Position numbers and translations under genes: made by a program. The notes below the pieces were generated by a model. That model had not been told where the DNA came from and ran no database searches. It was given only the letters and a program-made list of their open reading frames with translations. DNA of 64,000 nucleotides from Bacteroidota bacterium (lineage in GTDB: Bacteria > Bacteroidota > Bacteroidia > Flavobacteriales > Flavobacteriaceae): the NCBI GenBank assembly GCA_029557895.1, contig JAKQHT010000023.1:124001-188000 (forward strand), given 5' to 3'. The stretch's first letter is position 1, and each line of letters begins with the position of its first letter. Positions 4,981-36,265 of this stretch are shown here, one piece after another.

Positions 4981-6033
4981 ATGAGCAAAGATTTACAGAA
5001 CAAGACTTCTGAAGAAATAGATTTGGGCCAGATTTTTAATGCCATCGGAAAAATGTTTGACCGACTATTCAAATTTATAGGAGGTTTTTTCAAAGTTGTT
5101 TTTACACTTTTTATGAGCTTTTTAAAGGTGGTGATAGACAACTTGATAACGGTTGCCATAGTTGTTGGTATTGCATTTGCTGTCGGTTATTTTTTCGAAA
5201 AAAACAAGGCGCCCGTTTATGAAGCCAGCATGTTGGTAAAACCGTACTACAATTCAAAGTACCAGTTGATCGCCAATGTGAATTATTACAATTCGTTGCT
5301 CGAGGAGAGAAATTTTGAAGTACTGTCCAACGCTTTTGGTATTGCAAAAGAAGATGCTCAAAAAATAAAGAGTTTTGAAGTAGAAAGCGGACCAGAGACC
5401 AAAAACGATCTCCTTAAACAGTATGACCTATATCTAAAATCTCTTGACAGTTCCAGAGCATTGAGCATCACTTATGTTGACTTTGTGGAAAACAGGAACA
5501 TCTATTCCAGCGAGCTATATTTGATAACGGTCAAATCCCTCAAGAAAGATATTTTCAAAAGTCTGGAAAAAGGATTTGATGATATTTTCATCAATGAGCT
5601 TTCAATTGCCCAAAAACAAAAAAGGGACAAAACATTTGAAATCAAAAAAACCGCTTTCGAAAGCACCCTATCAAAAATCGACACACTCCAGCAGACCTAT
5701 TTGAAAATTGTTCAAAAAGAGGCCGATAAGGGCGAAGCGTTTGTAAACGTGCAAGGGCTTTTGCCGCTACAACAGGAAAGGTCTAAAACCCATGAGTACG
5801 AGCTTTTCCAATACGAGATTCGCATACGAGACTCCATTCGGGAAATTGAACAGTTGAAAGCAGATGAAGATATCTATTATGACATCCTTTCCGGATTCCC
5901 GAAAGTAGGCAAGGTAGATTCTTCATTGTTATCTCGTTATTATGTGCTTTTCCCCATAATTGCATTTATATTGTTGTGTATTGGCTACATGACCATCAAG
6001 CTGTATAAATTTATCAAAAACTATGAAAGCTAA
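4981..6033 (+). CDS. Wzz-like polysaccharide chain-length determinant
   Basis: A 350-residue protein with an N-terminal hydrophobic region (about 21-65), a periplasmic part with coiled-coil-like stretches (about 200-300) and a C-terminal transmembrane helix (about 315-340). This is the two-helix Wzz/PCP topology that sets polymer length for Wzy-made glycans. It has no C-terminal Walker motifs or tyrosine-rich tail, so it is not a Wzc kinase. It is the first gene of the polysaccharide locus, 13 bases after the previous gene, and overlaps rfbB by 11 bases. The sequence is diverged, so the assignment rests on topology and context. Confidence 0.7.
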   Translation: MSKDLQNKTSEEIDLGQIFNAIGKMFDRLFKFIGGFFKVVFTLFMSFLKVVIDNLITVAIVVGIAFAVGYFFEKNKAPVYEASMLVKPYYNSKYQLIANVNYYNSLLEERNFEVLSNAFGIAKEDAQKIKSFEVESGPETKNDLLKQYDLYLKSLDSSRALSITYVDFVENRNIYSSELYLITVKSLKKDIFKSLEKGFDDIFINELSIAQKQKRDKTFEIKKTAFESTLSKIDTLQQTYLKIVQKEADKGEAFVNVQGLLPLQQERSKTHEYELFQYEIRIRDSIREIEQLKADEDIYYDILSGFPKVGKVDSSLLSRYYVLFPIIAFILLCIGYMTIKLYKFIKNYES

Positions 6034-7084
6034 CACCCCTATCCTTATCACTGGCGGTTCAGGGTTCATAGGTTCGCATGTGGCCAGACTGTTTGTGGAG
6101 CGCTATCCGGATTATGGGATATTCAACTTGGATGCCTTGACCTATGCGGGCAATCTGGAAAACCTAAAGGACATAGAAGATCGGCCCAACTACACTTTTA
6201 TCAAAGGCGACATAACGGATGAAATATTCATAAACGACCTATTTGAAAAGCATCGGTTTGAGGGCGTCATCCATTTGGCAGCAGAATCGCATGTAGATAG
6301 ATCCATCACCGACCCGTTGGCGTTCGTAAAGACAAATGTTATTGGCACCATGGTGCTTTTGAACGCATTCAAAAACATCTGGCACCATGATTTTTCGGGC
6401 AAACGCTTTTATCACATCAGCACCGATGAGGTTTATGGTACTTTGGGCAACACGGGATTGTTCACCGAAACCACGCCTTACGACCCAAATTCACCCTATT
6501 CAGCATCAAAAGCAAGTTCTGACCATTTTGTAAGGGCTTACGGAGAAACGTACGGGTTGCCATATATCATTACCAATTGCTCCAATAATTACGGTCCCAA
6601 TCAATTTCCCGAAAAACTGATTCCGCTGTTCATCAACAACATTATCCATCAAAAACCATTGCCCGTCTATGGCGATGGTAATTATACCCGCGATTGGCTC
6701 TATGTGTTGGACCATGCACGGGCCATTGACGTTGCTTACCACAGAGGCAAAAACGGTGAAACGTACAACATCGGTGGCTTTAACGAGTGGAAAAACATTG
6801 ACCTCGTGAAGTTGCTTTGCAAGTTGATGGATGAAGCCTTGGGCAGATCCAAAGGCACTTCAGAACGATTGATTACTTTTGTAAAGGACCGTCCGGGCCA
6901 CGATTTGCGGTACGCCATAGATGCCACAAAAATAAAAGCCGAACTCGGGTGGGAACCATCGCTGGTGTTTGAAGAAGGGTTAAAAAATACCATCAAATGG
7001 TATTTGGAAAACCAACAATGGTTGGACCATGTGACAAGTGGCGAGTATCAAAATTATTATCAAGAGCAATATCAGACCCGATGA
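6023..7084 (+). CDS. rfbB: dTDP-glucose 4,6-dehydratase
   Basis: A 353-residue short-chain dehydrogenase of the RmlB type, which converts dTDP-glucose to dTDP-4-dehydro-6-deoxyglucose, step two of dTDP-L-rhamnose synthesis. GGSGFIGSH (about 10-18) binds NAD, and HISTDEVYG plus [20 protein letters not shown] hold the active-site Ser/Thr and Yxxx[18 protein letters not shown] is the RmlB substrate-binding block. The length is normal. It overlaps the upstream gene by 11 bases and rfbA by 4 (ATGA), so rfbBACD is a tightly coupled set. Confidence 0.97.
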
Positions 7085-7950
7085 AAGGAATCATTTTAGC
7101 CGGGGGATCCGGTACCAGATTGCACCCATTGACACTTTCAGTGAGCAAGCAATTGATGCCCATATACGACAAGCCCATGATCTATTACCCGCTTTCAACC
7201 TTGATGTATGCCGGTATTAAGGAAATCTTGATTATTTCTACGCCTAAAGACCTACCTCTTTTTAAAGACCTGCTTGGCGATGGTAAAAAAATTGGCTGTA
7301 GGTTTGAATACGAAGTACAGGAAGCACCAAACGGTTTGGCGGAAGCGTTCATAATTGGTGAAAATTTTATTGGAAAAGACAAAGTCGCACTGATATTGGG
7401 CGACAATATCTTTTACGGGACCGGTCTTTCAAAATTGCTTCAGGCAAACAATGACCCCGATGGCGGCATCATCTATGCTTATAGGGTGCATGACCCGGAG
7501 CGCTATGGCGTTGTGGAATTTGATACGAGCGGACAAGCAGTGTCAATTGAAGAGAAACCAACTTCTCCCAAGTCCAATTTTGCCGTACCGGGTATTTATT
7601 TTTATGATAATGATGTTGTTTCTATTGCAAAAAGCATCAAGCCGAGCCATAGAGGGGAGTTGGAAATTACAGACATAAACAAAGAATACCTAAAACGAGG
7701 AAAGCTCAGCGTGAGTATTTTAGATCGGGGGACGGCATGGCTCGACACGGGCACTTTTCAGTCTTTGATGCAGGCCTCACAATTTGTTGAGGTCATAGAA
7801 GAACGCCAAGGACTGAAAATAGGATCAATAGAGGGCGCAGCCTATGAAATGGGTTATATTGACGATGAACAATTCAAAAAGTTGGCAGAACCCTTGATGA
7901 AAAGCGGTTACGGAAAAAATCTCCTTGGCTTATTGAACCACAAACGATGA
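7081..7950 (+). CDS. rfbA: Glucose-1-phosphate thymidylyltransferase
   Basis: A 289-residue protein that makes dTDP-glucose from dTTP and glucose-1-phosphate, the first step of the rhamnose pathway. The N-terminal motif [18 protein letters not shown] is the nucleotidyltransferase signature, and [17 protein letters not shown] and EEKP follow as expected. The start at ATG 7081 gives this canonical N-terminus; the longer open frame upstream runs over the end of rfbB and is rejected. It shares ATGA with both neighbours, consistent with translational coupling. Confidence 0.97.
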
Positions 7951-8492
7951 TTGCAAAAGAAACGAACTTACAAGGGTGTTTTATCCTCGAACCTCAAGTT
8001 TTTGAAGATGCAAGAGGCTATTTTTTGGAAAGTTTTAATCAAAAGAAGTTCTGTGAACTTATTGGCGATCAGGTAAATTTTGTTCAGGACAACGAGTCAC
8101 TGTCGTCAAAAGGCGTATTGCGGGGCTTGCATTTCCAAAAAGGGCAATACGCACAGGCTAAATTGGTGAGAGTAATCAAAGGCGCCGTTATGGATGTGGT
8201 GGTGGACGTCAGACCCGATTCTACAACTTTTGGACAAACATTATCCATTGAGCTTTCAGAACACAACAAGAAGCAACTATTCATCCCTCGCGGATTTGCC
8301 CATGGCTTTATCGTCTTAACAGACCAAGCCATATTTTCCTATAAGTGTGATAATTACTACAATAAAGCATCTGAAGGCGGTATTATTTATAATGATAAAA
8401 ACCTGAATATCGATTGGAAACTATCCCCGGAAACGTTTATCATATCAGAAAAGGACAAAATACTGCCTAACTTTGACAGCATTGAGCTATGA
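7947..8492 (+). CDS. rfbC: dTDP-4-dehydrorhamnose 3,5-epimerase
   Basis: A 181-residue cupin-fold RmlC enzyme, the third step in making dTDP-L-rhamnose. Conserved blocks are [15 protein letters not shown] near residue 20, [24 protein letters not shown] (catalytic His in GLHFQ), and [13 protein letters not shown]. The length is normal. It overlaps rfbA and rfbD by 4 bases each. Confidence 0.97.
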
Positions 8493-9358
8493 AAAAGAGA
8501 ATTGTGGTAACCGGCGCCAACGGACAGCTCGGAAAGACCATCAAAGACATTTTTTGTTTAAACGCAGAGGAACTCGAATGTGTTTTTGTTGGCCGGACCG
8601 AACTTGATGTGGCCAATAAAGACAAGGTCTGCCAATTTTTCAACAACCACGCCTTTGACTACTGCGTCAATTGCGCCGCTTTTACCAATGTAGATGGTGC
8701 CCAAGATGCGATACACGAAGCATTTGCCATTAATGCAGATGCGGCAGACTTTTTAGCGCAGGCATGCAAATCATCAAACACGACCTTGATCCACATTTCA
8801 ACAGATTATGTTTTTGACGGAAAAAAGTGCACGCCCTATACAGAAACCGATCCCACAAACCCCATCAATGTGTACGGACGGTCAAAGTTGGAAGGCGAAA
8901 GGCTTATCCAAAAGGCAATGGCAAAATATTTTATTATCAGGACATCATGGCTGTATTCTCAATACCCAAAGAATTTTGTGACCACCATAGCCGGAAAAAT
9001 CAAGGAAAATGCCGACCTTTCGATTGTAACCTCACAAAGAGGCACTCCTACCAGTTGCGAGTCGTTGGCAAAGTTTATCCATTGGTTGATAGTCAATGAA
9101 AACAAAGATTACGGCATTTTCCATTTCAGCGCCAAAGGAGAAACTACTTGGCACGGACTGTCACTCAAAATCGCCGAGCAGTTCACAGATTATGACAGAA
9201 AAAAAATCAAGGCCGTTGAAAGTTTCAAAACCAAGGCCCAACGGCCAATATACAGTGTGATGGACAATTCAAAAGTTCAAAAGATATATCACGCCCAAAA
9301 CGACTGGTCAGTGGAGTTGGAGAAAGTTATGGGACAAATTCTAAATAAGCTGGGCTAA
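8489..9358 (+). CDS. rfbD: dTDP-4-dehydrorhamnose reductase
   Basis: A 289-residue RmlD reductase completing dTDP-L-rhamnose. It has the TGANGQLG NAD(P)-binding motif at about residues 8-15, the STDYVFDG block and the catalytic YGRSKLEGE (YxxxK). The length is normal. It is the last gene of the four-gene rhamnose set. The 90-base gap after it carries a -7-like box at 9385-9392, so gmd may have its own transcript. Confidence 0.97.
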   Translation: MKKRIVVTGANGQLGKTIKDIFCLNAEELECVFVGRTELDVANKDKVCQFFNNHAFDYCVNCAAFTNVDGAQDAIHEAFAINADAADFLAQACKSSNTTLIHISTDYVFDGKKCTPYTETDPTNPINVYGRSKLEGERLIQKAMAKYFIIRTSWLYSQYPKNFVTTIAGKIKENADLSIVTSQRGTPTSCESLAKFIHWLIVNENKDYGIFHFSAKGETTWHGLSLKIAEQFTDYDRKKIKAVESFKTKAQRPIYSVMDNSKVQKIYHAQNDWSVELEKVMGQILNKLG

Positions 9359-10569: not shown

Positions 10570-11619
10570 ATGGACAAAAACGCCAAGATTTATGTTGCCG
10601 GCCACAGAGGCCTTGTTGGGAGCGCCATATTGGAAAACCTGATAAGCAAGGGCTACACTAACATAGTATTCAAAACACATAAAGAGCTGGACCTTTTGGA
10701 TCCACGGCAAGTTGCCCGCTTTTTTGAGGCTCAAAAACCCGAATACGTATTTCTTGCTGCCGCTAAAGTGGGCGGCATTGTCGCAAACAATCTTTACAGG
10801 GCCGATTTCATTTATGAAAACCTAATGATACAGAACAATGTCATACACCACAGCTATCTCTACGGGGTCAAAAAACTCCTGTTCCTTGGAAGCACTTGCA
10901 TCTATCCCAAGAACGCACCCCAGCCGATAAAAGAAGACTATTTGCTGACAGACACGCTCGAATACACCAATGAACCTTATGCCATCGCAAAGATAGCCGG
11001 CATCAAGACCTGCGAAAGCTACAATCTGCAATATGGCACAAATTTCATTTCCGTGATGCCCACCAACCTTTATGGACCCAATGACAATTTTGATCTTCAA
11101 AAATCGCACGTACTTCCGGCCCTGATACGGAAAATACATTTAGCAAAACTTTTGGATGAATCGAAGTATGATGAAGTTTTGAAAGATACCGGTTTTGCAA
11201 CGCTCGAAGACGCAAAAATCTATCTCAAAAAATTTGGTGTTGACCAAAACACCGTTGAAATCTGGGGAACCGGAAACCCCAAAAGAGAATTTCTCTGGTC
11301 AAAAGACATGGCAGATGCCTGCGTTTTCATAATGGAAAACAAGGATTTCAAAGACACCTACCCAAAAGAGGAAACACAAATAAGGAATACACACATCAAC
11401 ATTGGTACCGGTGAGGAAATATCCATCAAGGATCTGGCGTTTAAAATCAAGGAATTGATCGGTTTTCGGGGAGATCTCGTGTTTAATACCGACAAACCCG
11501 ACGGCACCATGCAAAAACTTACAGACGTATCAAAGCTTCACGCCTTGGGATGGAAACACTCGGTGAACCTTGACAAAGGACTAAATATTATTTACAACTG
11601 GTACTTAAATGGAAAATGA
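10570..11619 (+). CDS. fcl: GDP-L-fucose synthase
   Basis: A 349-residue epimerase/reductase making GDP-L-fucose from the gmd product. GHRGLVGSAI (about 11-20) binds NADP, and GSTCIYPKNAPQPIKE and PYAIAKIAG hold the active-site Ser, Tyr and Lys. It is about 30 residues longer than the E. coli enzyme, mostly through a Lys/Asp-rich insertion at about 196-225 before the WGTGNPKREFLW block. From memory, such an insertion occurs in other Bacteroidota fcl proteins. Its 3' end overlaps cysQ by 11 bases, linking fucose supply to the sulfate-activation genes. Confidence 0.95.
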   Translation: MDKNAKIYVAGHRGLVGSAILENLISKGYTNIVFKTHKELDLLDPRQVARFFEAQKPEYVFLAAAKVGGIVANNLYRADFIYENLMIQNNVIHHSYLYGVKKLLFLGSTCIYPKNAPQPIKEDYLLTDTLEYTNEPYAIAKIAGIKTCESYNLQYGTNFISVMPTNLYGPNDNFDLQKSHVLPALIRKIHLAKLLDESKYDEVLKDTGFATLEDAKIYLKKFGVDQNTVEIWGTGNPKREFLWSKDMADACVFIMENKDFKDTYPKEETQIRNTHINIGTGEEISIKDLAFKIKELIGFRGDLVFNTDKPDGTMQKLTDVSKLHALGWKHSVNLDKGLNIIYNWYLNGK

Positions 11620-12406
11620 ACTTATCAATATTGCAATAAGAGCCTCATTGGAAGCCGGGGCGGCTATCATGGAGATTTATCAAAAACCTTTTGATGTCGA
11701 ACTAAAGGAAGACCGCTCTCCACTGACCCAGGCTGACAAGGCATCAAATAGTAACATCCTATCACATTTGGAATATACCAACATCCCGATCATCAGTGAA
11801 GAAAGCAGGCAAACGGATTATGCCATCAGGAGCAAATGGAGCAGGTGCTGGATCGTGGATCCGCTGGACGGTACCAAGGAGTTTGTAAAGCGCAATGGCG
11901 AGTTTACTGTAAATATTGCACTCGTTGAGGATCAAGTGCCGATTTTGGGCGTCATTTACGTTCCAGTAACAAAAGAACTCTACTTTGCGAACGTAAGAGA
12001 GGGAAAATCCTATAAAGCCCAATTAACCGCGCACAACGACACATTAGAGCAGATTCTTGAATCGGCCAAGACATTGAATCCAAACACGGCAGTTGACACA
12101 ATTAGGGTCGTGGGAAGCCGTTCCCACATGAGCCAAGAGACGCTGGATTATATGGAACAACTCAAAACTAACGGAAAAACCATAGAAGTAGTTTCAAAAG
12201 GGAGTTCCTTAAAATTTTGTCTGTTGGCAGAAGGATTGGCAGATGCTTATCCACGTTTTGCCCCTACCATGGAGTGGGATACAGCTGCCGGCCACGCCAT
12301 TTGCAACGCTGTTGGCATAGAGGTCATTTCAAAAGAAACAGACCTGCCATTGCTTTATAATAAAGAAAACTTACTCAATCCTTGGTTTTTGGCGTCAAAA
12401 CGATGA
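11609..12406 (+). CDS. cysQ: 3'(2'),5'-bisphosphate nucleotidase CysQ
   Basis: A 265-residue lithium-sensitive phosphatase family member that removes the 3'-phosphate from PAP, the by-product of PAPS-using sulfotransferases. Metal-binding motifs are visible: EES (about 63-65) and DPLDGTKEFVKRNGEFTVNI (about 86-105), followed by the EWDTAAGHAI block near residue 215. The length is normal. It starts inside the end of fcl and shares ATGA with the DUF2061 gene, heading the PAPS module. Confidence 0.93.
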   Translation: MENELINIAIRASLEAGAAIMEIYQKPFDVELKEDRSPLTQADKASNSNILSHLEYTNIPIISEESRQTDYAIRSKWSRCWIVDPLDGTKEFVKRNGEFTVNIALVEDQVPILGVIYVPVTKELYFANVREGKSYKAQLTAHNDTLEQILESAKTLNPNTAVDTIRVVGSRSHMSQETLDYMEQLKTNGKTIEVVSKGSSLKFCLLAEGLADAYPRFAPTMEWDTAAGHAICNAVGIEVISKETDLPLLYNKENLLNPWFLASKR

Positions 12407-12837
12407 AAGACAATTCCAAAAAAAGACATATCGCAAAAACCATAACATGGCGACTGGTAGGAACCATCGACACCATCATCTTGTCATGGATTGTCTCCGG
12501 AAACCCTTTTACAGGGCTCAAGATCGGTTTTTCGGAAGTGGCCACCAAAATGATTTTGTATTACATCCACGAAAGGTTGTGGTTCAAGGTCCGGTTCAAG
12601 AATAGCAACAAAAGACATTTGTTAAAGAGCGTTACTTGGCGTATATTGGGCACTCTTGACACAATGCTACTGGCGTGGCTAATAACGGGCAACCCACTGA
12701 CAGGTCTTAAAATTGGGCTCTTGGAATTGGTCACAAAAATGGCATTGTATTTCTTGCATGAAAAAGTATGGCACAAAGTGCGTTATGGTCTCGAGAACAC
12801 CGATAATTTTTTAGAGAATGGAACCAAACATAGTTGA
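12403..12837 (+). CDS. Tandem DUF2061 membrane protein
   Basis: A 144-residue protein with two copies of the same unit of about 60 residues. Unit one has KRHIAKTITWRLVGTIDTI and unit two KRHLLKSVTWRILGTLDTM, each followed by W(I/L)(V/I)(S/T)GNP(F/L)TGLKIG and a helix ending in HE(R/K)(L/V)W. Each unit appears to hold two short hydrophobic helices. The start at ATG 12403 overlaps the cysQ stop (ATGA); the longer frame upstream lies in cysQ. DUF2061 has no established function. The position between cysQ and cysC, both with overlaps, points to a role linked to sulfate activation or its membrane use. Confidence 0.85.
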   Translation: MKDNSKKRHIAKTITWRLVGTIDTIILSWIVSGNPFTGLKIGFSEVATKMILYYIHERLWFKVRFKNSNKRHLLKSVTWRILGTLDTMLLAWLITGNPLTGLKIGLLELVTKMALYFLHEKVWHKVRYGLENTDNFLENGTKHS

Positions 12838-13420
12838 ACACACGTATCAAATTTCAGCAGCTGACAGGTGCAAAGCCAATGGCCACAATGCCTTTCTGCT
12901 ATGGTTTACAGGGCTGTCCGGATCCGGGAAATCGACTATTGCCAATAAAGTAGAGTTAGCTCTTTTTGAAAAAGGCATCAAAACCTACACGCTCGATGGC
13001 GATAATATCCGGAAAGGATTGAACCAGGACCTGACGTTTTCCCCAGATGACCGGACCGAGAACATTAGACGAATTGCAGAAGCCGCGAATTTGATGATCG
13101 ATGCCGGGCTAGTAGTTTTAGCGGCATTTGTTTCGCCATACAAAAAAGACCGCGAGAACATCAAAACTATCGTCAAAGAGGATAATTTTGTTGAAATTTA
13201 CATCAATACCAGTGTTGAGGAATGTGAACGCCGTGACGTAAAAGGTCTTTACAAAAAAGCCCGTGCAGGAGAAATCAAGGACATGACCGGCATATCATCT
13301 CCTTATGAGGCGCCCATTGACCCCGACATAGAGATACAGACCGAGAATGAAACAGTAGCACAGGCTGTAGAAAAAATACTAAAGCACATTGAACCAAAAC
13401 TAAATCTCAATCATGAGTAG
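12818..13420 (+). CDS. cysC: Adenylyl-sulfate kinase
   Basis: A 200-residue APS kinase that phosphorylates APS to PAPS, the universal sulfate donor. The Walker A motif GLSGSGKST starts at about residue 32; LDGDNIRKGLNQDL and FVSPYKKDRE follow, with the YKKARAGEIKDMTGI lid block at about 148-162. The length is normal. It overlaps the DUF2061 gene by 20 bases and cysD by 8. As no APS or PAPS reductase is nearby, PAPS is probably used for sulfation rather than for cysteine synthesis. Confidence 0.95.
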   Translation: MEPNIVEHTYQISAADRCKANGHNAFLLWFTGLSGSGKSTIANKVELALFEKGIKTYTLDGDNIRKGLNQDLTFSPDDRTENIRRIAEAANLMIDAGLVVLAAFVSPYKKDRENIKTIVKEDNFVEIYINTSVEECERRDVKGLYKKARAGEIKDMTGISSPYEAPIDPDIEIQTENETVAQAVEKILKHIEPKLNLNHE

Positions 13421-14318
13421 ATATTATCTGAATTATTTGGACGAACTGGAAAGTGAGGCCATTTTTGTATTGCGGGAGGTTTGGGCACAGTTCCAGCACC
13501 CGGTAATCTTGTTTTCCGGCGGAAAAGATTCCATCGTGGTCACACATTTGGCGAGAAAAGCGTTTTATCCATCAAAGATTCCTTTTGCGTTGATGCACGT
13601 CGATACCGGGCACAATTTTCCGGAAACCATCAAGTTTAGGGATGATTTGATAAAGGAACTCGGGCTCAACCTTATTGTGGGCTCTGTTCAGGAATCAATA
13701 GATGCCGGACGCGTAGCAGAAGAAAAAGGCAAGAGCGCCACAAGGAACGCACTCCAGACCACCACTCTTTTGGATGCAATAGAAAAACATAAAATAGATT
13801 GTGCCATTGGGGGCGGAAGACGTGACGAAGAAAAAGCACGGGCCAAAGAACGTTTCTTCTCGCACCGGGACGATTTTGGGCAGTGGGATCCCAAAAACCA
13901 ACGCCCCGAACTTTGGAACCTGTTCAATGGAAAATATTTTGAAGGCGAGCATTTTAGGGCGTTCCCAATCAGTAACTGGACAGAGATGGACGTTTGGAAC
14001 TATATCAAACGAGAAAACATTGCCATTCCATCGCTGTATTTTGCCCACGAAAGAGAAGTGGTATGGCGACAAGATTCGTGGATTCCCAATTCGGAATTTT
14101 TAAGATTGGAAGCCCATGAAGAAGTCATAGTAAAAAAAATCAGGTTCCGGACCCTTGGCGACATTACCATTACCGGAGGCATTGAATCTGATGCGGATAC
14201 GCTCGAAAAAATCGTGAACGAGGTTTCGGGGATGCGCCAGACAGAACGCGGCAACCGCAGCGACGACAAGCGCTCTGAATCCGCAATGGAAGACCGGAAA
14301 CGGCAAGGATATTTTTAG
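13413..14318 (+). CDS. cysD: Sulfate adenylyltransferase subunit 2
   Basis: A 301-residue PP-loop ATP pyrophosphatase, the catalytic subunit of ATP sulfurylase that makes APS from ATP and sulfate. The PP-loop FSGGKDSIVV is at about residues 33-42, followed by HVDTGHNFPE and the GGGRRDEEKARAKERFFSHRD block. The C-terminal RQGYF ending is typical. The start overlaps cysC by 8 bases. It works with the GTPase CysN encoded 105 bases downstream. Confidence 0.96.
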   Translation: MSRYYLNYLDELESEAIFVLREVWAQFQHPVILFSGGKDSIVVTHLARKAFYPSKIPFALMHVDTGHNFPETIKFRDDLIKELGLNLIVGSVQESIDAGRVAEEKGKSATRNALQTTTLLDAIEKHKIDCAIGGGRRDEEKARAKERFFSHRDDFGQWDPKNQRPELWNLFNGKYFEGEHFRAFPISNWTEMDVWNYIKRENIAIPSLYFAHEREVVWRQDSWIPNSEFLRLEAHEEVIVKKIRFRTLGDITITGGIESDADTLEKIVNEVSGMRQTERGNRSDDKRSESAMEDRKRQGYF

Positions 14319-14423
14319 AGAAAAAAAGGGTTTTCGGGTTGCGTGCAGAGTGCAGGACATTTTTTCTAAATAACCAGACAACTTTGAACCAAAAAACCCA
14401 GAACATAAAGCTTGAACAAAACC

Positions 14424-15677
14424 ATGATAGATAACAACCAATTATTACGATTTACAACGGCCGGAAGTGTCGATGACGGAAAAAGCACTTTGATAGGCCG
14501 TTTGTTGTACGACTCCAAGTCGATATTTGAAGATCAGTTGGCCGCGATTGAAAACACCAGCAAAAAAAGAGGTCACGAAGGCGTTGATTTAGCGCTGTTT
14601 ACTGACGGCTTGCGGGATGAGCGAGAACAAGGCATCACCATAGATGTAGCCTACAGATATTTTACGACTCCCAAGCGCAAGTTTATCATTGCAGACACGC
14701 CCGGACATATACAATATACCCGGAACATGGTTACCGGCGCATCCACTGCAAATGCCGCCATCATCCTTGTCGATGCGAGGCATGGAGTTATTGAGCAGAC
14801 CAAGCGCCATTCGTTTATTGCATCGTTATTGCAAATTCCCCATGTTATTGTATGTGTCAACAAAATGGATTTGGTAGATTATTCCGAGGAGGCTTTCAAC
14901 CGCGTCATTAATCAGTTTGAGGAATTTTCATCCAAATTATTGGTTCGAGACATCCGGTTTATTCCCATCAGTGCACTTGAAGGCGATAATGTCGTGAACC
15001 GTTCAGAACATATGAACTGGTACCAAGGAGCACCACTGCTGCACACGCTCGAAACCTTGCACATCAGCAGCGATATTAACAAGGTGGATGCCCGTTTTCC
15101 CGTACAGACAGTGTTGCGCCCACAAAACGACTCGCACAGAGATTATCGCGGCTATGCCGGTAGGTTAGAAAGTGGCGTGCTTCGGGTAGGGGACGAAATC
15201 ACTGTAATGCCTTCAGGGTTTACCTCAAAAATCAAATCGATAGACACCTTTGACGGGACACTTGAAGAAGCCTTTGCACCCATGTCGGTATCCATTACCC
15301 TTGAGGATGACATCGACATCAGCCGGGGCGACATGATCGTGCGAACCAAGAACAAGCCAGAAGTGGTACAAGATATAGAAGTGATGCTTTGCTGGTTGCA
15401 CAACAACAGCGCCAAGCCAAGGGCCAAATATACCATACGTCACACGTCCAACGAACAGAAGGCGATGATCAAAGACGTAGTCTATAAAATAGACATCAAC
15501 ACTTTAGAACGCAATACAAATGACACCGAACTTAACATGAACGACATTTGTAAGGTAACACTAAGAACCACAAAACCGCTGATGGTCGATTCCTATAGGG
15601 AAAACAGGACAACGGGCAGCATCATTTTGATAGATGACGCTACCAACGAGACCGTGGCAGCAGGAATGGTGGTATAA
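14424..15677 (+). CDS. cysN: Sulfate adenylyltransferase subunit 1 (GTPase)
   Basis: A 417-residue translation-factor-like GTPase that drives APS formation with CysD. G motifs are GSVDDGKSTLIG (about 14-25), DTPGH (about 92-96) and NKMD, followed by two beta-barrel domains. The ATG at 14424 is preferred over the TTG at 14412. It lacks a fused C-terminal CysC domain, consistent with the separate cysC gene. A lipoprotein gene follows 14 bases downstream and probably shares its transcript. Confidence 0.96.
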   Translation: MIDNNQLLRFTTAGSVDDGKSTLIGRLLYDSKSIFEDQLAAIENTSKKRGHEGVDLALFTDGLRDEREQGITIDVAYRYFTTPKRKFIIADTPGHIQYTRNMVTGASTANAAIILVDARHGVIEQTKRHSFIASLLQIPHVIVCVNKMDLVDYSEEAFNRVINQFEEFSSKLLVRDIRFIPISALEGDNVVNRSEHMNWYQGAPLLHTLETLHISSDINKVDARFPVQTVLRPQNDSHRDYRGYAGRLESGVLRVGDEITVMPSGFTSKIKSIDTFDGTLEEAFAPMSVSITLEDDIDISRGDMIVRTKNKPEVVQDIEVMLCWLHNNSAKPRAKYTIRHTSNEQKAMIKDVVYKIDINTLERNTNDTELNMNDICKVTLRTTKPLMVDSYRENRTTGSIILIDDATNETVAAGMVV

Positions 15678-16265: not shown

Positions 16266-17285
16266 ATGTTCGAACTAAAAAACAAATCGATACTTATAAC
16301 GGGCGGTACGGGATCTCTCGGCAAAGCATTGACCCGGCATATTTTATATAAACACCCAGAAATCAAAAGGCTGGTCGTCTATTCAAGGGACGAGCAAAAG
16401 CAATTTCAGATGGAACAAGAGTTTCCAACGTCACAATTTCCACAGATCAGGTATTTTATTGGGGATGTCCGTGACAAGGACCGCTTGATAAGGGCATTCC
16501 AAGGGGTTGATTATGTCATTCATGCAGCAGCAATGAAACATGTGCATATTGCCGAATACAACCCAGATGAATGTATAAAAACCAATATCGGCGGCGCCGA
16601 AAATGTTGTTGACGCCTGCTTCAAGACAAAAGTGGAACGCGTGGTGGCGCTTTCAACCGATAAGGCATGCGCACCGATCAACCTTTACGGCGCAACAAAA
16701 TTGACATCGGACAAATTATTTATCGCTGCAAACAACATCAAAGGCGACAACCCCATAAGGTTATCCGTTGTGCGTTATGGCAATGTTATGGGCTCAAACG
16801 GTTCTGTAATACCTTTCTTTATCAATAAGAAGAAAGAAGAGGGTATTCTTCCGATTACCGATCCAAACATGACCCGTTTCAACATTTCATTGCAAGGAGG
16901 CGTTGATATGGTCATGCACGCACTGGAACACGCTTGGGGCGGCGAGCTTTTTGTTCCCAAGATACCGTCTTACAAAATCCTTGACGTGGCAGAGGCCATT
17001 GGTCCAGAATGTGAAAAGCCAGTAATCGGCATACGTCCAGGGGAAAAAATCCATGAGGAAATGATTACCGCTTCAGATTCCTTTTACACCTACGATATCG
17101 GAAAATATTATACCATTTTGCCCGCCAAGCACAAGTGGAACCTTGAAGACTTTATAAGCACATTCAAGGCCAAAAAAGTGCCCCAGGGATTTAGTTACAA
17201 CTCCGGGGACAATGACCAATGGGAAACCATTGAAAGCATGAGAGAGTTGATAAAGCAGCATGTGGACAGCAATTTTGAAGTTTGA
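16266..17285 (+). CDS. UDP-GlcNAc 4,6-dehydratase (PseB-like)
   Basis: A 339-residue SDR of the PseB/FlaA1 type. TGGTGSLGKALT (about 12-23) binds NADP, and AAAMKHVHIAEYNPDECIKTNIGGAENVV and LSTDKACAPINLYGATKLTSDKLF hold the active-site Asp/Lys and YxxxK in the arrangement special to inverting 4,6-dehydratases. The soluble length matches PseB, not the membrane-bound PglF type. The product would be a UDP-4-keto-6-deoxy-L-HexNAc. It overlaps the CMP-sugar synthetase gene or ends 2 bases before it, depending on that gene's start. Confidence 0.88.
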   Translation: MFELKNKSILITGGTGSLGKALTRHILYKHPEIKRLVVYSRDEQKQFQMEQEFPTSQFPQIRYFIGDVRDKDRLIRAFQGVDYVIHAAAMKHVHIAEYNPDECIKTNIGGAENVVDACFKTKVERVVALSTDKACAPINLYGATKLTSDKLFIAANNIKGDNPIRLSVVRYGNVMGSNGSVIPFFINKKKEEGILPITDPNMTRFNISLQGGVDMVMHALEHAWGGELFVPKIPSYKILDVAEAIGPECEKPVIGIRPGEKIHEEMITASDSFYTYDIGKYYTILPAKHKWNLEDFISTFKAKKVPQGFSYNSGDNDQWETIESMRELIKQHVDSNFEV

Positions 17286-17287
17286 AC

Positions 17288-17989
17288 ATGGAAAGGATTG
17301 CGATCATTCCCGCCAGAGGAGGCAGCAAAAGAATCCCCAGGAAAAACATAAAGGATTTTCTGGGTAAACCAATAATCTCATACACCATTGAAGCAGCCCT
17401 GCAAAGCAAAATGTTTAGCGAGATCATGGTATCTACGGACGACGAATCGATTGCGGACATAGCGAGAACTTTTGGTGCAAGTGTTCCTTTTTTGAGAAGT
17501 TCCAATAACGCCAATGACCACGCAACCACATTTGAAGTGATAGAAGAAGTACTATTGCGCTACAAAAGCAAAGGAATGGTTTTTGGCGAAGCTTGTTGCA
17601 TCTATCCAACGGCACCATTTACTACGCCACAACGATTAAAGCAATTTCACGAATTCTTGGACACATCAAATTTTGACTGTGTTTTTCCCGTGTTAAAGTA
17701 CGGTTATCCCATTCAAAGAGGGCTGCAATTGAGCGATCACAATCAAATGCGGATGATCTCCCCCGAGCATTTGGTTACACGCTCCCAGGACCTGACCCCA
17801 TCCTATCACGATGCGGGGCAATTTTATTGGTTTAGGGTCGATAGACTTTTACAATTTGGACAATTGTGGACCGACAACACGGGCGCTTTGGAAATCAACG
17901 AAATGGAAGCGCACGACATTGACAATCTTGACGATTGGGAAATAGCCGAATTTAAATACCAACTGTTTCAAAAAAAGAAAGTCAGGTGA
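17288..17989 (+). CDS. Acylneuraminate cytidylyltransferase (PseF-like)
   Basis: A 233-residue protein that couples CTP to a nonulosonic acid to give the CMP-activated sugar. The N-terminal signature IIPARGGSKRIPRKN is diagnostic, and CIYPTAPF, DAGQFYW and the EINEMEAHDIDNLDDW ending match the PseF/NeuA group. ATG 17288 gives this start; a TTG at 17282 would overlap the previous stop and is also possible. The stop shares GTGA with the next gene. Confidence 0.9.
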   Translation: MERIAIIPARGGSKRIPRKNIKDFLGKPIISYTIEAALQSKMFSEIMVSTDDESIADIARTFGASVPFLRSSNNANDHATTFEVIEEVLLRYKSKGMVFGEACCIYPTAPFTTPQRLKQFHEFLDTSNFDCVFPVLKYGYPIQRGLQLSDHNQMRMISPEHLVTRSQDLTPSYHDAGQFYWFRVDRLLQFGQLWTDNTGALEINEMEAHDIDNLDDWEIAEFKYQLFQKKKVR

Positions 17990-18885
17990 AAAAAAGAATA
18001 TTGATTACAGGCGCAACGGGAATGTTTGGCGCCACACTATCCAAATATTTTCAAGACAATTTTGAGGTTTTTGCCACCGGGACAAAAGATTTGAACTTCG
18101 ATGGAATCAAAAATTTCATGGCATTTGATTTGTCCAGTTCTGATTACTCAAAACTTATTGAGTGGTCAAAACCGGACACCATTATCCATGCTGCCGCATT
18201 GACCAATGGCAATTATTGTGAACAGAACCCTGAACAGGCATTTGCCATAAATGGCATTTCACTGCAAAAATTTTGCAAAGCAATCCCCGAACAGACCCAA
18301 CTGATCTATATATCGACAGATGCGGTTTTTTCAAACGACAAGCACCTTGCCAATGAGACCGATTGTGTACATCCAGAAAGCGTTTACGGTAAGGCAAAAG
18401 AGTTGGGCGAGTTTTTTTTGCGCCACTCCAATTGTGATTATACCATCGTAAGAACCACCATTGTCGGAAAAAACCTGAACAAAAACAAACAAGGTTTTGT
18501 AGAATGGATTGTCAATTCCTCAAGTGCGGGGAGTGAAATTTCCCTTTTTGATGATGTGCTGTTTACTCCAATATCCATATGGAACCTCGCCGAACATTTG
18601 GAATATATCATCAACAATCCCACTGCGTTTTCAAGAAAAACCTTTCATGTTGCAGGGCGTGAGATATGTACCAAATATCAATTTGGCATCACATTGCTAA
18701 AAAGCTTAAATTTACCCACAGGTTTGGTCAAAAGAGGAAAAATCACCGATTTTGAAGATAGGGCAAAACGCAGTACGGACCAAACCTTGGACTGCAAGCG
18801 GTTTGAGGAGGTGAGCCAAAGGCAGTTGCCAACTTTAAAACAAACCATTCAGGAACTAAAAGACCATTATGATGAGGCAAATTAA
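17986..18885 (+). CDS. RmlD-like NAD(P)-dependent sugar reductase
   Basis: A 299-residue SDR starting with GTG in a GTGA overlap. ILITGATGMFGATL (about 4-17) binds the cofactor, and YISTDAVFSND and VYGKAKELGEF give the STD and YxxxK catalytic elements. Overall it resembles dTDP-4-dehydrorhamnose reductases, but rfbD is already present at 8489. Lying between a CMP-sugar synthetase gene and a NeuB-type synthase gene, it probably reduces a 4-keto nucleotide sugar, perhaps the PseB-like product, for the nonulosonate branch. The exact substrate is unknown. Confidence 0.82.
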   Translation: MKKRILITGATGMFGATLSKYFQDNFEVFATGTKDLNFDGIKNFMAFDLSSSDYSKLIEWSKPDTIIHAAALTNGNYCEQNPEQAFAINGISLQKFCKAIPEQTQLIYISTDAVFSNDKHLANETDCVHPESVYGKAKELGEFFLRHSNCDYTIVRTTIVGKNLNKNKQGFVEWIVNSSSAGSEISLFDDVLFTPISIWNLAEHLEYIINNPTAFSRKTFHVAGREICTKYQFGITLLKSLNLPTGLVKRGKITDFEDRAKRSTDQTLDCKRFEEVSQRQLPTLKQTIQELKDHYDEAN

Positions 18886-19933
18886 ATTGGGTAGCAAAAT
18901 CGTCAACGACCATTCGTTGTATTTCATTGCCGATATTGGCGCCAACCACAACGGCTCTTTGGAAAAAGCCATCAAACTGATCCATTTGGCAAAGGAAGCC
19001 GGAGCGGATGCGGCCAAATTTCAGAACTTTCAGGCCAGTAAAATAGTGAGCAAGAAAGGTTTTGATGCCATGCAGGGCAAATTGTCCCACCAATCCAAAT
19101 GGAAAAAATCGGTTTATGAAGTCTATGAAGACGCAAGCATTGACAAGGCGTGGACCAAAACCCTCAAAGAGGAGTGTGACAAAGTGGGCATCGATTATTT
19201 CACGAGCCCGTATGATTTTGATTCCGTTGATCTGGTCGATCCGTATGTGGAGCTATACAAAATAGGCTCCGGCGACATCACTTGGCTCGAAATCATTTCG
19301 TATATTTTGGACAAAAACAAGCCTGTACTTATAGCCACTGGCGCCTCAACAATGGACGATGTGGATCGTGTAATGGCTCTGGCACTAAAAAAGACCGACG
19401 ATTTGGTACTGATGCAGTGCAATACCAACTATACGGGCAGCGTTGACAATTTTAATTATTGCAATCTCAACGTGCTGAAAGCGTTTAAAGAAAAATATCC
19501 CGAAGTGATGCTCGGCCTTTCGGATCACACCCCGGGACACGCCACCACCCTGGGCAGCATCGCCTTAGGGGCAAGGGTCATCGAAAAGCACTTTACGGAC
19601 GACAACAACCAAGACGGCCCGGACCATGCGTTTGCCATGAACCCAAAGACCTGGAGGGACATGGTGGACCGTTCCTACGAATTGCTCTCTGCTCTCGGCG
19701 ATGGCATCAAGCGGATAGAACCCAATGAAGAGCAATCCATATTGGTGCAGAGGCGCTGCTTGAGGGTCAATAGGGACCTGAAGGCGGGTGAGGTTTTGAC
19801 AAAAGCAGATGTTATCGCCTTAAGGCCCATTTCGGAAGGCGGCCTTCAGCCGTACGAGATAGGTAGTATTTTGGGCAGACCATTGGCAAAAGACATAGTG
19901 TCTGGAGACCACCTAACCATTAGTCATTTTTAA
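18869..19933 (+). CDS. NeuB-family nonulosonic acid synthase
   Basis: A 354-residue enzyme that condenses phosphoenolpyruvate with a six-carbon amino sugar to form a sialic-acid-like nine-carbon sugar. FIADIGANHNGSLEKAIKLI (about 18-37), AAKFQNF and GLSDHTPGHATTLGSIALGARVIEKHFT are NeuB-family blocks, and a C-terminal SAF antifreeze-like domain (RRCLRVNRDLKAGEVLT onward) completes it. It overlaps the upstream SDR gene by 17 bases. Whether the product is pseudaminate, legionaminate, neuraminate or another sugar cannot be read from the sequence. Confidence 0.92.
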   Translation: MMRQIKLGSKIVNDHSLYFIADIGANHNGSLEKAIKLIHLAKEAGADAAKFQNFQASKIVSKKGFDAMQGKLSHQSKWKKSVYEVYEDASIDKAWTKTLKEECDKVGIDYFTSPYDFDSVDLVDPYVELYKIGSGDITWLEIISYILDKNKPVLIATGASTMDDVDRVMALALKKTDDLVLMQCNTNYTGSVDNFNYCNLNVLKAFKEKYPEVMLGLSDHTPGHATTLGSIALGARVIEKHFTDDNNQDGPDHAFAMNPKTWRDMVDRSYELLSALGDGIKRIEPNEEQSILVQRRCLRVNRDLKAGEVLTKADVIALRPISEGGLQPYEIGSILGRPLAKDIVSGDHLTISHF

Positions 19934-19935
19934 CT

Positions 19936-20466
19936 ATGATAACAGGAAAAAAAGTAGGCTTAAGAGCAGTAGAAAAAGAAGATTTAAAACTACTTCGCGA
20001 TTGGCGGAACCGTACAGACTTCCGAAGGAATTTCAGGGAAGTCAGGGAACTGTCTCTGGCCGACCAAGAAGCTTGGTTTGAAAGCCTTCAGCGCACAAAG
20101 CACATAAATTACATGTTTGCCATTGTGGACTTAAAAACAAACGAAACCATTGGTGCCGCAGGGCTATTGTACATCAACTGGATCATCCGCTCGGCAGACT
20201 TTTCATTTTATATCGGGAAGGACGGCCAGTACATAGACGACAAGGGCATTGCGGAAGAAGCTGCAAAATTGCTTATTGACTATGGATTCAACAACCTTAA
20301 CCTTAACAAGTTATGGATGGAATTATATGAGTTCGACACAAAGAAAATATCATTCTTTACTGAAAAGTTTAATTTTAAAAAAGACGGTCTGTTGCGTCAA
20401 AATTGTTTTGAAGACGGGAAGTATTGGGATTCTTTGATTATTTCACGTTTAAGACAAGATAGATAA
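19936..20466 (+). CDS. GNAT N-acetyltransferase (PseH-like)
   Basis: A 176-residue GNAT-fold acyltransferase that begins 2 bases after the synthase gene stop. GLRAVEKEDLKLLRDWRN is the usual N-terminal beta-alpha start for this subgroup (RimJ/RimL or PseH-like), and a diverged acetyl-CoA loop lies near YIDDKGIAEEAAKLLIDYGF. In this position it likely N-acylates an amino sugar of the nonulosonate branch, as PseH does. However, no aminotransferase is nearby to create a free 4-amino group, so O-acylation or an enzyme encoded elsewhere must be considered. Confidence 0.82.
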   Translation: MITGKKVGLRAVEKEDLKLLRDWRNRTDFRRNFREVRELSLADQEAWFESLQRTKHINYMFAIVDLKTNETIGAAGLLYINWIIRSADFSFYIGKDGQYIDDKGIAEEAAKLLIDYGFNNLNLNKLWMELYEFDTKKISFFTEKFNFKKDGLLRQNCFEDGKYWDSLIISRLRQDR

Positions 20467-34011: not shown

Positions 34012-35171
34012 ACTTGCGCCGCAAGCTCGTCCATTTGGCGCCCAAAATCAAATTCTCTGTTTGCAACAGCCCTGATATTGTCCCTTATGGAGCCGTGGAG
34101 TTCCGTTTTGCTGATTTTGGATATTGTCCGGTTGAGGTCTTCATAATTTCCGGGTTTTGCCACCCAGCCCAGGCGGAAATCCTCTACAAGCCGTTCTCCT
34201 TCGCCTCCACCGAAATACAGTATTGGAAGGCCAAGCTTGGCATATTCAAATATTTTTGAAGGCACAGAACCATAGATTCTATTGAGCAACGGTACAAGGG
34301 TAAGGTCATATCCCAAAAGTATTTCGTGGAGTTCGTTGCGAGGCAATTCGCCATGATAGAACAATGGCAATTCGGGGTGTTCTGATATATAGGCTTCAAT
34401 CAACGTTTTTTCCGCTCCGGCACCGTACAAGTGAAACTCGATTCCGGAATAGTTGATTTCTTGGCACAATTTATAGATGCCCTGTGCAACACCCAATAGG
34501 CCGGCATAAACGATTTTTATCGTGCCTTCGGAATGAGCAAAGGTTGTTTTTTTGGGAGGTTCAAAATCGGGATAATTCCTGTACAGGATCATGTCCTTGT
34601 TGCCCACAACAGACCCAACATGGGATAAGATCTCTTCACTTTGCCCCATAATCAAATCGGCTTTCTTATAGTTGAAGGCTTCAATTTTTTCCAACATCCT
34701 GTAACTGAAATTTCTTTTGAAAGCACCCAGCTCAAGTCCTGCAATGGGCCAAAGGTCACTGATGTTCAAGATGACTTTTCGCTTTTTTGACTTTAAAAAA
34801 AGCATGCAGGTAAACGCTACCAGGAGTGGTGGTGATTGGACAATAACCTTGTCGGGGATTTTCTTCCACAAGAAAAACCATATCAGGCTAAGACTGTATG
34901 ATAGCATTGCCAACAGTCGGAGCAATTTGTTCTTGGAATTACTGGCATAAATCCACAGGCGGTGTACGGTAATGCCATTTTCAATGGTAAGGTCACGTGT
35001 TTTGCCTTTGTACTGTTCAAATATTTTGCCGGTGGGATAGTTGGGCAATGGCGTAAGGACACTTACGTTATACCCCTTTATTTTTAGGCCGTTTGCCAAA
35101 TGGTGGATGCGATTGGAAGCCGCTCCGGTTTCTGGAGGATAATAACTCGTTATGACCAATATTTCTTTCAC
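34005..35171 (-). CDS. GT4-family glycosyltransferase (WbuB-like)
   Basis: A 388-residue GT-B enzyme on the minus strand. The GTG start at 35171 is chosen because it forms a GTGA overlap with the upstream wecB stop and gives the expected N-terminus ILVITSYYPPETGAASNR. The C-terminal half has IVYAGLLGVAQGIYKLCQEI and PLLNRIYGSVPSKIFEYAKLGLPILY. The subgroup is often called WbuB/FnlD-type and tends to use HexNAc donors; the UDP-ManNAc epimerase gene upstream suits that, but it remains inference. It is convergent with the main locus. Confidence 0.87.
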   Translation of the reverse strand: MKEILVITSYYPPETGAASNRIHHLANGLKIKGYNVSVLTPLPNYPTGKIFEQYKGKTRDLTIENGITVHRLWIYASNSKNKLLRLLAMLSYSLSLIWFFLWKKIPDKVIVQSPPLLVAFTCMLFLKSKKRKVILNISDLWPIAGLELGAFKRNFSYRMLEKIEAFNYKKADLIMGQSEEILSHVGSVVGNKDMILYRNYPDFEPPKKTTFAHSEGTIKIVYAGLLGVAQGIYKLCQEINYSGIEFHLYGAGAEKTLIEAYISEHPELPLFYHGELPRNELHEILLGYDLTLVPLLNRIYGSVPSKIFEYAKLGLPILYFGGGEGERLVEDFRLGWVAKPGNYEDLNRTISKISKTELHGSIRDNIRAVANREFDFGRQMDELAAQVQ

Positions 35172-36265
35172 CCCAATCCAAATATTTTGACCAAATGGTT
35201 CACGATGCGCTCGGCAGCTCGGCCGTCCCAAAGTTCAGGTGTGGCGCCGCTTTTCCAATTGCCAACCAATAGGTTTTGGAAGGCATCGGCAATTTTTTTT
35301 GGATCGTTGCCCACAAGGACATTGGTGCCGATAGTACAGGTTTCGGGTCGTTCCGTATTCTCTCGAAGTGTAATGCACGGCACGTCCATAACGGTGGTTT
35401 CTTCGGTAATGCCGCCCGAATCCGTCAATACGGCAAGGGCGTTTTTGACCAGATAATTGAACTCAAGATATCCCAAAGGATCCACATAGTGCAGGTTTTC
35501 AAAAGCCAAATCCATATCCTGCAATAATTTTTTGGTTCTCGGGTGTACGGGAAAGACAATTTGAAGCCCGCCGGCAAGCGTTACAAGTTGTGCTATCAAT
35601 GATTTTAGTTTCTGTTCTTCATCGACATTGCTCGGGCGATGTAGGGTCATGACAAAGTAGTTCTTTTCGCGAAGCCCAAGGTCTATCCAAAGTTTTGGTT
35701 GTTTGAGCCGCGACTCATTTTTGCGGAGTGTATCTATCATCACATTGCCAACAAAAAAGATTTGCTCATCGGAAAAACCGAGCTGTTTCAGGTTTTGGTT
35801 GGCGTAGGTTGATGTTGTAAAAAAATAATCGGTAATGCTGTCAGTAACCATTCTGTTGATTTCTTCGGGCATGTCCATGTCGCCCGATCGGATGCCAGCT
35901 TCAACATGTGCAACCCTAATACCGGCTTTTTTGGCCACGATGGCACAGGCCATGGTAGAAGTTACGTCGCCAACGACCATGACCAAATCACAAGGATGTT
36001 CTTTTAGTTCCTTTTCAAAACCTATCATGATGGCGGCGGTTTGCTCTGCTTGTGAACCACTTTTGACCTCCAGATTGGTGTCTGGGTATGGAATGTTCAA
36101 TTCCTCAAAAAAGGTGTCGCTCAAATTTTTGTCATAGTGCTGGCCGGTATGCACCAACCGAAAATCAATGGCAACCCCTTGGCTTTTTTTAGCCTTGATG
36201 GCATCGATTATCGGTGCTATTTTCATAAAGTTTGGCCTTGCCCCGGCGACGATGGTTATGGTCAT
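35168..36265 (-). CDS. wecB: UDP-GlcNAc 2-epimerase, non-hydrolysing
   Basis: A 365-residue WecB/MnaA-family enzyme interconverting UDP-GlcNAc and UDP-ManNAc. Blocks seen are AGARPNFMKIAPII at the N-terminus, VHTGQHYD, VVGDVTSTMACAIVAKKAGIRVAHVEAGIRSGD, and LTDSGGITEETTVMDVPCITLRENTERPET. Length and motifs fit the non-hydrolysing type. It overlaps the downstream GT gene by 4 bases and follows the CapK-like gene by 1 base on the same strand, forming a three-gene unit. Confidence 0.94.
   Translation of the reverse strand: MTITIVAGARPNFMKIAPIIDAIKAKKSQGVAIDFRLVHTGQHYDKNLSDTFFEELNIPYPDTNLEVKSGSQAEQTAAIMIGFEKELKEHPCDLVMVVGDVTSTMACAIVAKKAGIRVAHVEAGIRSGDMDMPEEINRMVTDSITDYFFTTSTYANQNLKQLGFSDEQIFFVGNVMIDTLRKNESRLKQPKLWIDLGLREKNYFVMTLHRPSNVDEEQKLKSLIAQLVTLAGGLQIVFPVHPRTKKLLQDMDLAFENLHYVDPLGYLEFNYLVKNALAVLTDSGGITEETTVMDVPCITLRENTERPETCTIGTNVLVGNDPKKIADAFQNLLVGNWKSGATPELWDGRAAERIVNHLVKIFGLG

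Follow-up and report, generated by a model that had tools for sequence, protein, structure and literature searches.

The pseudaminic acid pathway comprises PseB, PseC, PseH, PseG, PseI and PseF, and the sialic acid pathway comprises NeuC, NeuB and NeuA. In rhamnose synthesis, a 4-keto-6-deoxy-L-sugar is reduced by RmlD. Nonulosonates with a methyl group at C9 and a hydroxyl group at C7, next to a reduced PseB product, are also a known class: fusaminic acid is reported alongside 6-deoxy-L-AltNAc in one O-antigen of Fusobacterium nucleatum ATCC 25586 in the excerpted text of PMC13014188. Here, we analyzed a stretch of 64,000 nucleotides from a Flavobacteriaceae genome (GCA_029557895.1, contig JAKQHT010000023.1, positions 124,001 to 188,000; hereafter the window, numbered from its first letter), in which a block of five genes resembles these pathways and includes an RmlD-like short-chain dehydrogenase/reductase (SDR). 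The block probably makes a sialic-acid-like surface sugar through the reduction of an intermediate that is normally aminated. On balance, we favor its interpretation as a nonulosonate pathway in which the PseC amination would be replaced by reduction, with all chemical steps deduced from gene content.

The identities of the genes were judged against the curated NCBIfam cut-offs, and Pfam assignments were consistent with these calls:

16266 to 17285, + strand: PseB, UDP-GlcNAc 4,6-dehydratase, 5-inverting by family (TIGR03589, 496 bits, cut-off 408)
17282 to 17989, + strand: PseF, CMP-nonulosonate synthetase (TIGR03584, 292 bits, cut-off 206)
17986 to 18885, + strand: RmlD-like SDR (PF04321, 157 bits; RmlD model, 145 bits, cut-off 224)
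18869 to 19933, + strand: NeuB-family synthase with a SAF domain (PF03102, 237 bits; PF08666)
19936 to 20466, + strand: PseH/SpeG-like GNAT (TIGR03585, 62 bits, cut-off 93)

An earlier reading made from the sequence alone (the sequence-only reading) had described contiguous PseB-, PseF-, NeuB- and PseH-like genes with an RmlD-like reductase inside the cluster, and this layout was confirmed: the SDR gene lies between those of PseF and the synthase. The best solved relative of the block PseB is 2gn4, a UDP-GlcNAc C6 dehydratase (E 2e-100). The likelier start of PseF is the ATG at 17288, which gives a 2-base gap from the end of PseB; the PseF and SDR genes overlap by 4 bases, the SDR and synthase genes by 17 bases, and 2 bases separate the synthase gene from that of the GNAT. 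This tight spacing suggests that the five genes form a single transcription unit. In a scan of promoters and terminators, promoter-like sites were at chance level (20 vs. 18.7), and terminator-like sites numbered 14 vs. 6.2 in shuffled sequences, with none on the + strand between the block genes; neither result was used as evidence.

A scan with the block synthase yielded, as its best 80 matches, loci of Bacteroidota, Chloroflexi, Clostridia, Proteobacteria and candidate phyla (numbered with the prefix L). An RmlD-like SDR gene adjoined the synthase gene in 75 of them, within 1 kb upstream in 74 and downstream in one. The five others comprised two that end at a contig edge (L040, L057) and three true exceptions (L032, L052, L091); under a stricter 60-base adjacency rule, the count was 65/80. 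Such an arrangement, repeated across several phyla, is far beyond chance. BLAST with reference PseC and PseG proteins from L040 and L055 detected PseC in 1/80 loci (L040 itself) and PseG in 3/80, namely L040 and L055 themselves and L087, where the protein falls just below the cut-off (147 vs. 153.55). L040, which holds both, has lost its SDR side at the contig end. As a control we used 20 PseI loci above the cut-off, of the same class, about 15 kb each with one of 8.5 kb. The SDR was a best match in none of these, PseC was present in 15 and PseG in 10 (BLAST). Thus, the SDR was found solely in the SDR-type loci and not in the 20 classical PseI loci. The presence of the SDR in 75/80 loci, the near absence of PseC and PseG from them, and the lack of the SDR in the controls together argue for the reductive pathway.

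The composition of the loci points the same way. PseB was found in 50/57 loci with long flanks. Of the long-flank loci, 43 encode PseB and have the SDR by the 60-base rule; among these, a PseF or SpsF-like CTP transferase was encoded in 41 and a GNAT in 31, and neither of two aminotransferase groups was encoded in 29. Thus, PseB, the SDR, the synthase and a CTP transferase are the constant core, and the remainder is optional. No gene group beyond the SDR, synthase, PseB and GNAT occurred in more than half of the 80 loci; the SpsF-like group came next, with 38. No linked hydrolase conserved across the 80 loci was seen. The block synthase was present in 3/299 family genomes, its own counted, and one of the other two is merely 48% identical to it. 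A search of plasmids gave one distant match alone, from Maritalea (52.5%). The arrangement thus spans several phyla yet is rare in the family, a distribution consistent with a variable locus for surface polysaccharide.

In the pathway that we propose, PseB would convert UDP-GlcNAc to UDP-2-acetamido-2,6-dideoxy-L-arabino-hexos-4-ulose, and the SDR with NAD(P)H would reduce the 4-ketone, giving UDP-6-deoxy-L-AltNAc or its C4 epimer (L-ido). UDP would be removed by PseG in a few relatives, and otherwise by an unlinked hydrolase or by one of the block's own enzymes. From the free 6-deoxy-HexNAc and phosphoenolpyruvate, the NeuB-family enzyme would form a 5-acetamido-3,5,9-trideoxy-nonulosonic acid with a C7 hydroxyl (fusaminic-type), which PseF would activate with CTP, while the GNAT would modify some further position. 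The best reading of the predicted product is, therefore, a 5-N-acyl-3,5,9-trideoxy nonulosonate with a C7 hydroxyl. Such a 9-deoxy sugar, formed by reduction instead of amination, had been suggested in the sequence-only reading, and the comparison across loci favors it. Following the Fischer convention, 6-deoxy-L-AltNAc with phosphoenolpyruvate would give the L-glycero-L-manno configuration, and the other C4 configuration would give L-glycero-L-gluco.

The proposed 4-keto reductase, standing where PseC would act, is the block SDR. As the RmlD substrate and the PseB product are both 4-keto-6-deoxy-L-sugars, its pairing with PseB is chemically natural. The GxxGxxG motif, Ser110, Tyr134 and Lys138 were invariant in 30/30 aligned SDRs. 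The block SDR was 44-61% identical to the SDRs of its nearest relatives and 24-35% identical to the remaining ones. Its AlphaFold model (mean predicted local distance difference test score, 95) was closest to RmlD structures (Foldseek E 2.5e-22), the top eight RmlD entries giving Z of 33.7-35.4 and a root-mean-square deviation of 1.6-2.4 over 271-286 residues. Human MAT2B, GalE-type and other extended SDRs ranked closely behind, so that the fold alone leaves the substrate of the SDR unfixed. The RmlD-like fold and residues would also suit a second RmlD for dTDP-rhamnose that is merely located in the cluster. We consider this very unlikely, since the window already encodes RmlA, RmlB, RmlC and RmlD at 6023-9358, every one above its curated cut-off (the canonical RmlD, at 8489-9358, scores 270 bits vs. 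224), while the block SDR does not reach the RmlD equivalog cut-off and its relatives are linked to the synthase in nearly all loci. Moreover, in a midpoint-rooted tree, for which no node support is given, the NeuB-linked SDRs were placed apart from canonical RmlDs, with L056 as the deviant one.

Several observations weigh against the reductive pathway, and they concern the source of an amine, the release of UDP, the stereochemistry of PseB and the presence of the GNAT. The host assembly (2.43 Mb in 27 contigs) is just 85% complete, so 15% of the genome is missing. In what is present, a search for pseC and pseG homologues found neither at its curated cut-off: the best PseC match had 238 bits vs. 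423.5, and the sole match of the PseG model was MurG, on another contig. None of the DegT-family matches of the genome lies inside the window, and the window's Epimerase_2 gene encodes a non-hydrolysing WecB, in agreement with the earlier statement that the window holds no pyridoxal phosphate-dependent aminotransferase or UDP-sugar hydrolase. Full-length DegT genes do occur in the genome, one each on contigs 7, 24 and 1 (238, 194 and 197 bits with the PseC model). If an aminotransferase of the DegT family and a hydrolase, both encoded away from the block, completed the pathway, the product could be ordinary pseudaminic acid and the SDR an accessory. The GNAT would suit this, as it resembles PseH, an enzyme that requires an amine. 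The missing part of the genome leaves room for such a route, and an aminotransferase has been added in 14 of the 43 long-flank loci. In the whole-genome search, which covered 50 of the 80 genomes, a PseC-family protein (E 1e-80 or better) was found in 14/50, in 13 of them below the cut-off. The amine could thus arise in trans. Additionally, no PseC was found in 5/20 control loci and no PseG in 10/20, so that such an absence is not unique to the SDR type; in classical loci, too, these genes may escape detection or be located elsewhere.

We nevertheless regard ordinary pseudaminic acid as a rather unlikely product. The host DegT scores lie far from the PseC cut-off, the synthase is under the PseI cut-off, and among the 50 synthase-bearing genomes PseC was above the cut-off in one and PseG in four. 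Furthermore, the DegT gene of contig 7 was present in 99/100 family genomes and that of contig 24 in 54/100, against 3/299 for the synthase; the contig 1 gene was outside this comparison. As they are widespread and the synthase is rare, the first two do not track the presence of the pathway, but they may nonetheless act in it, and we did not retain an unlinked aminotransferase as part of the pathway. No NeuB-family gene other than that of the block synthase was found in the genome. The gene order of the window recurred in the named isolates Winogradskyella litoriviva, W. ludwigii and W. thalassocola (L023-L025) and Flavicella marina (L027), and neither PseC nor PseG was above the cut-off anywhere in these four genomes, which makes the incompleteness of the host genome less of a worry.

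The reductive pathway raises the puzzle of how UDP leaves without PseG, as no UDP-sugar hydrolase that would account for its release was found in most synthase-bearing genomes. NeuC was considered as the absent hydrolase and rejected. It was not found in the host genome, where the sole Epimerase_2 gene found is that of WecB, and it was above the cut-off in 12/50 synthase-bearing genomes, including those of W. litoriviva and Flavicella, and is therefore no consistent partner. The locus L055 of Clostridium carboxidivorans has the gene order SpsF-like, SDR, synthase, GNAT, PseB and PseG (241 bits, cut-off 154). The locus encodes no PseC and no member of either aminotransferase group; a PseC-family protein is encoded elsewhere in that genome (322 bits, below the cut-off). 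As it stands, L055 would amount to a full reductive pathway that includes a known hydrolase. Seen against it, the main gap in the model is that most other loci have no hydrolase linked to the cluster. The sequence-only reading had placed the SDR in the position of both PseC and PseG. The comparison of loci favors the first part, but not the second, as PseG occurs together with the SDR in L055 and, at a score slightly under the cut-off, in L087. We consider it improbable that both enzymes are replaced by the SDR, acting by itself or jointly with the synthase. If they were, the ketone would be moved to C3 (or C3 oxidized), UDP would be eliminated from C1, water would add, the sugar would be reduced, and the free 6-deoxy-HexNAc would be handed directly to NeuB, which would account for the near-universal SDR-NeuB pair in these clusters and for the absence of a consistently linked hydrolase.

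The assumption that the block PseB inverts C5 is challenged by Pdeg, which is 46% identical to Campylobacter jejuni PseB, non-inverting and paired with a 4-reductase, Preq, documented for the D-series (excerpted text of PMC4514872). A non-inverting PseB-like enzyme would change the stereochemistry: the SDR would give UDP-D-QuiNAc or its C4 epimer, and, following 2-epimerization, the synthase would form a 9-deoxy Neu5Ac analogue. NeuC in 12/50 genomes would suit such a route, and so would the synthase, which is nearer to the NeuB model (264 bits, cut-off 400) than to the PseI model (241 bits, cut-off 340), although under both cut-offs. The same preference for the NeuB model, below both cut-offs, was seen in 4/4 synthases scanned (that of the block and three relatives). 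However, the PseB equivalog score is well above the cut-off, WecB was the sole Epimerase_2 protein found in the genome, and NeuC is not above the cut-off in 38/50 genomes. We therefore consider this route unlikely. In the reductive pathway, a NeuB-like synthase would fit a substrate that bears a hydroxyl and not an acetamido group at C4, a match that is suggestive only. In a NeuB tree rooted on one control, all 81 target synthases split from the 22 others at a node with weak support (0.42), and there was no separation when one distant synthase was counted among the targets. The Glu aligned with Glu25 of meningococcal NeuB, present also in SpsE and PseI, was kept in 21/21 controls and is Asp in almost all targets. 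This position is residue 22 of the block synthase (18932-18934), with Asp in 81/82 of a target set that included the second, distant synthase of L097.

The GNAT was rightly noted earlier as having an unclear target. It is encoded beside the synthase in 31/31 loci L018-L048, even though the minimal clusters predict no amine, and this is a genuine puzzle for the reductive pathway. The block GNAT does not reach the PseH cut-off. Its closest solved relative by sequence is SpeG, and it is strongly conserved, being 63-78% identical to the aligned Bacteroidota members. Both its retention and the missing aminotransferase would be explained if the SDR aminated the 4-keto sugar reductively and the GNAT acetylated the resulting amine, the product still being pseudaminic acid. 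We know of no RmlD-like precedent for reductive amination, and a GNAT is not encoded beside the synthase in 12 of the 43 PseB- and SDR-containing loci with long flanks. The general acid of PseH is Tyr138 according to the excerpted text of PMC4363471, and an alignment gave it no counterpart in the window GNAT. For these reasons, we regard this explanation as extremely unlikely. As read from the alignment, and not from a structure comparison, the aligned Bacteroidota members apparently also lack a Tyr in this stretch, and the GNATs of L051 and the clostridial L055, L058 and L061 have one. In the reductive pathway, the GNAT may possibly O-acylate.

Other gene sets were seen in the relatives. Between the PseB and SDR genes there is often a set of three, encoding an aldo-keto reductase, an SpsF/KdsB-like CTP transferase and an aminotransferase, either class-III (GSA-type) or DegT. 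The SDR-type loci with this set are:

L030, 3137 to 7117: aldo-keto reductase set
L019, L020, L028, L029, L034, L036, L058 and L075: aldo-keto reductase set

The class-III version also occurs beside PseC in the control loci L145, L153 and L161. The set is, therefore, probably not a PseC substitute, and we rejected it as such; as a guess, it could put an amine on another carbon, for example in an 8-amino nonulosonate. A sugar of this kind is reported for Flexibacter (Tenacibaculum) maritimus in the excerpted text of PMC3210612. An uncultured Psychrobacter (L097:4963-17020) carries two adjacent nonulosonate clusters, one of the SDR type and the other with a second NeuB (30% identity), a PseB-like gene and a DegT gene. 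In the Chloroflexi loci L060, L071, L083, L088 and L095, a PseB-SDR-NeuB core without a GNAT lies beside an ABC transporter, which was of the Wzt type in the one member scanned for it (L074). A protein of about 540 residues, also encoded beside the core, matched no Pfam or NCBIfam model in L084, the single member that was scanned.

A profile scan of the window proteins placed the block in a surface-polysaccharide region. Besides the rhamnose genes, the window encodes Gmd, above its curated cut-off, and Fcl, close to its own (441 vs. 500). The genes directly upstream of the block, and the WecB gene, are as follows:

11609 to 15677: CysQ, adenylyl-sulfate kinase (CysC-type), CysD and CysN, each above its curated cut-off
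35168 to 36265, - strand: WecB, non-hydrolysing (321 bits, cut-off 210; NeuC model, 98 bits, cut-off 236)

The upstream sulfate genes suggest that the surface glycan may be sulfated.

The gene route without PseC, and mostly without PseG, looks like an undescribed variant of nonulosonate biosynthesis. Among the open-licence PMC matches listed, we recognized no description of a cluster that lacks PseC and PseG and has an RmlD-like SDR, and the open-licence PMC literature searched contained no gene route for fusaminic acid. The possibility of a new variant, raised in the sequence-only reading, would thus hold for the genes and not for the class of sugar, which is already known. Among related clusters, a Vibrio cluster with a fusion of SpsF and aldo-keto reductase has PseC (excerpted text of PMC7371886), and the excerpted text of PMC3765264 describes PseB and PseC in Shewanella oneidensis, with no clear orthologues of PseH, PseG, PseI and PseF. 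If the reductive pathway is true, then PseB, an RmlD-like SDR, a distinct NeuB group and a CTP transferase, without PseC and PseG, would be a gene signature for 7-hydroxy nonulosonates, for which the literature searched holds an O-antigen structure but no gene route. Producers of pseudaminic or sialic acid called from PseB, PseF or NeuB matches alone could then be misassigned.

Compared with the pseudaminic acid pathway, the block has PseB and PseF that pass their cut-offs, a NeuB-family synthase and a PseH-like GNAT. It differs in the absence of PseC and PseG above the cut-off, in the RmlD-like SDR that adjoins the synthase, and in its synthase and GNAT, which are below the PseI and PseH cut-offs. 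With the sialic acid pathway, it shares a synthase for which the NeuB model gives a higher score than the PseI model, but no NeuC was found in the genome, and PseB and PseF are present instead. The block SDR has the fold, the cofactor motif and the catalytic Ser-Tyr-Lys of RmlD, but it is below the RmlD cut-off, stands apart in the tree and is linked to NeuB and PseB. The UDP-L-FucNAc 4-reductase of another pathway acts on the substrate proposed for the block SDR, UDP-2-acetamido-2,6-dideoxy-L-arabino-hex-4-ulose. We take this reductase to be of the WbjC/FnlB type. Its NCBIfam model, NF047837, was weakly matched by another protein and was not among the matches of the block SDR at E 0.001 or better, and the block SDR, in contrast to it, sits with a NeuB-type synthase. 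The fusaminic acid of F. nucleatum 25586 is known as a structure, and the C4 configuration and 5-acetimidoyl group that the excerpted text gives for it are not predicted by the block. The predicted product of the block would nevertheless belong to the same class: a 5-N, 9-deoxy nonulosonate with a C7 hydroxyl, derived from a hexosamine of the 6-deoxy-L-AltNAc type.

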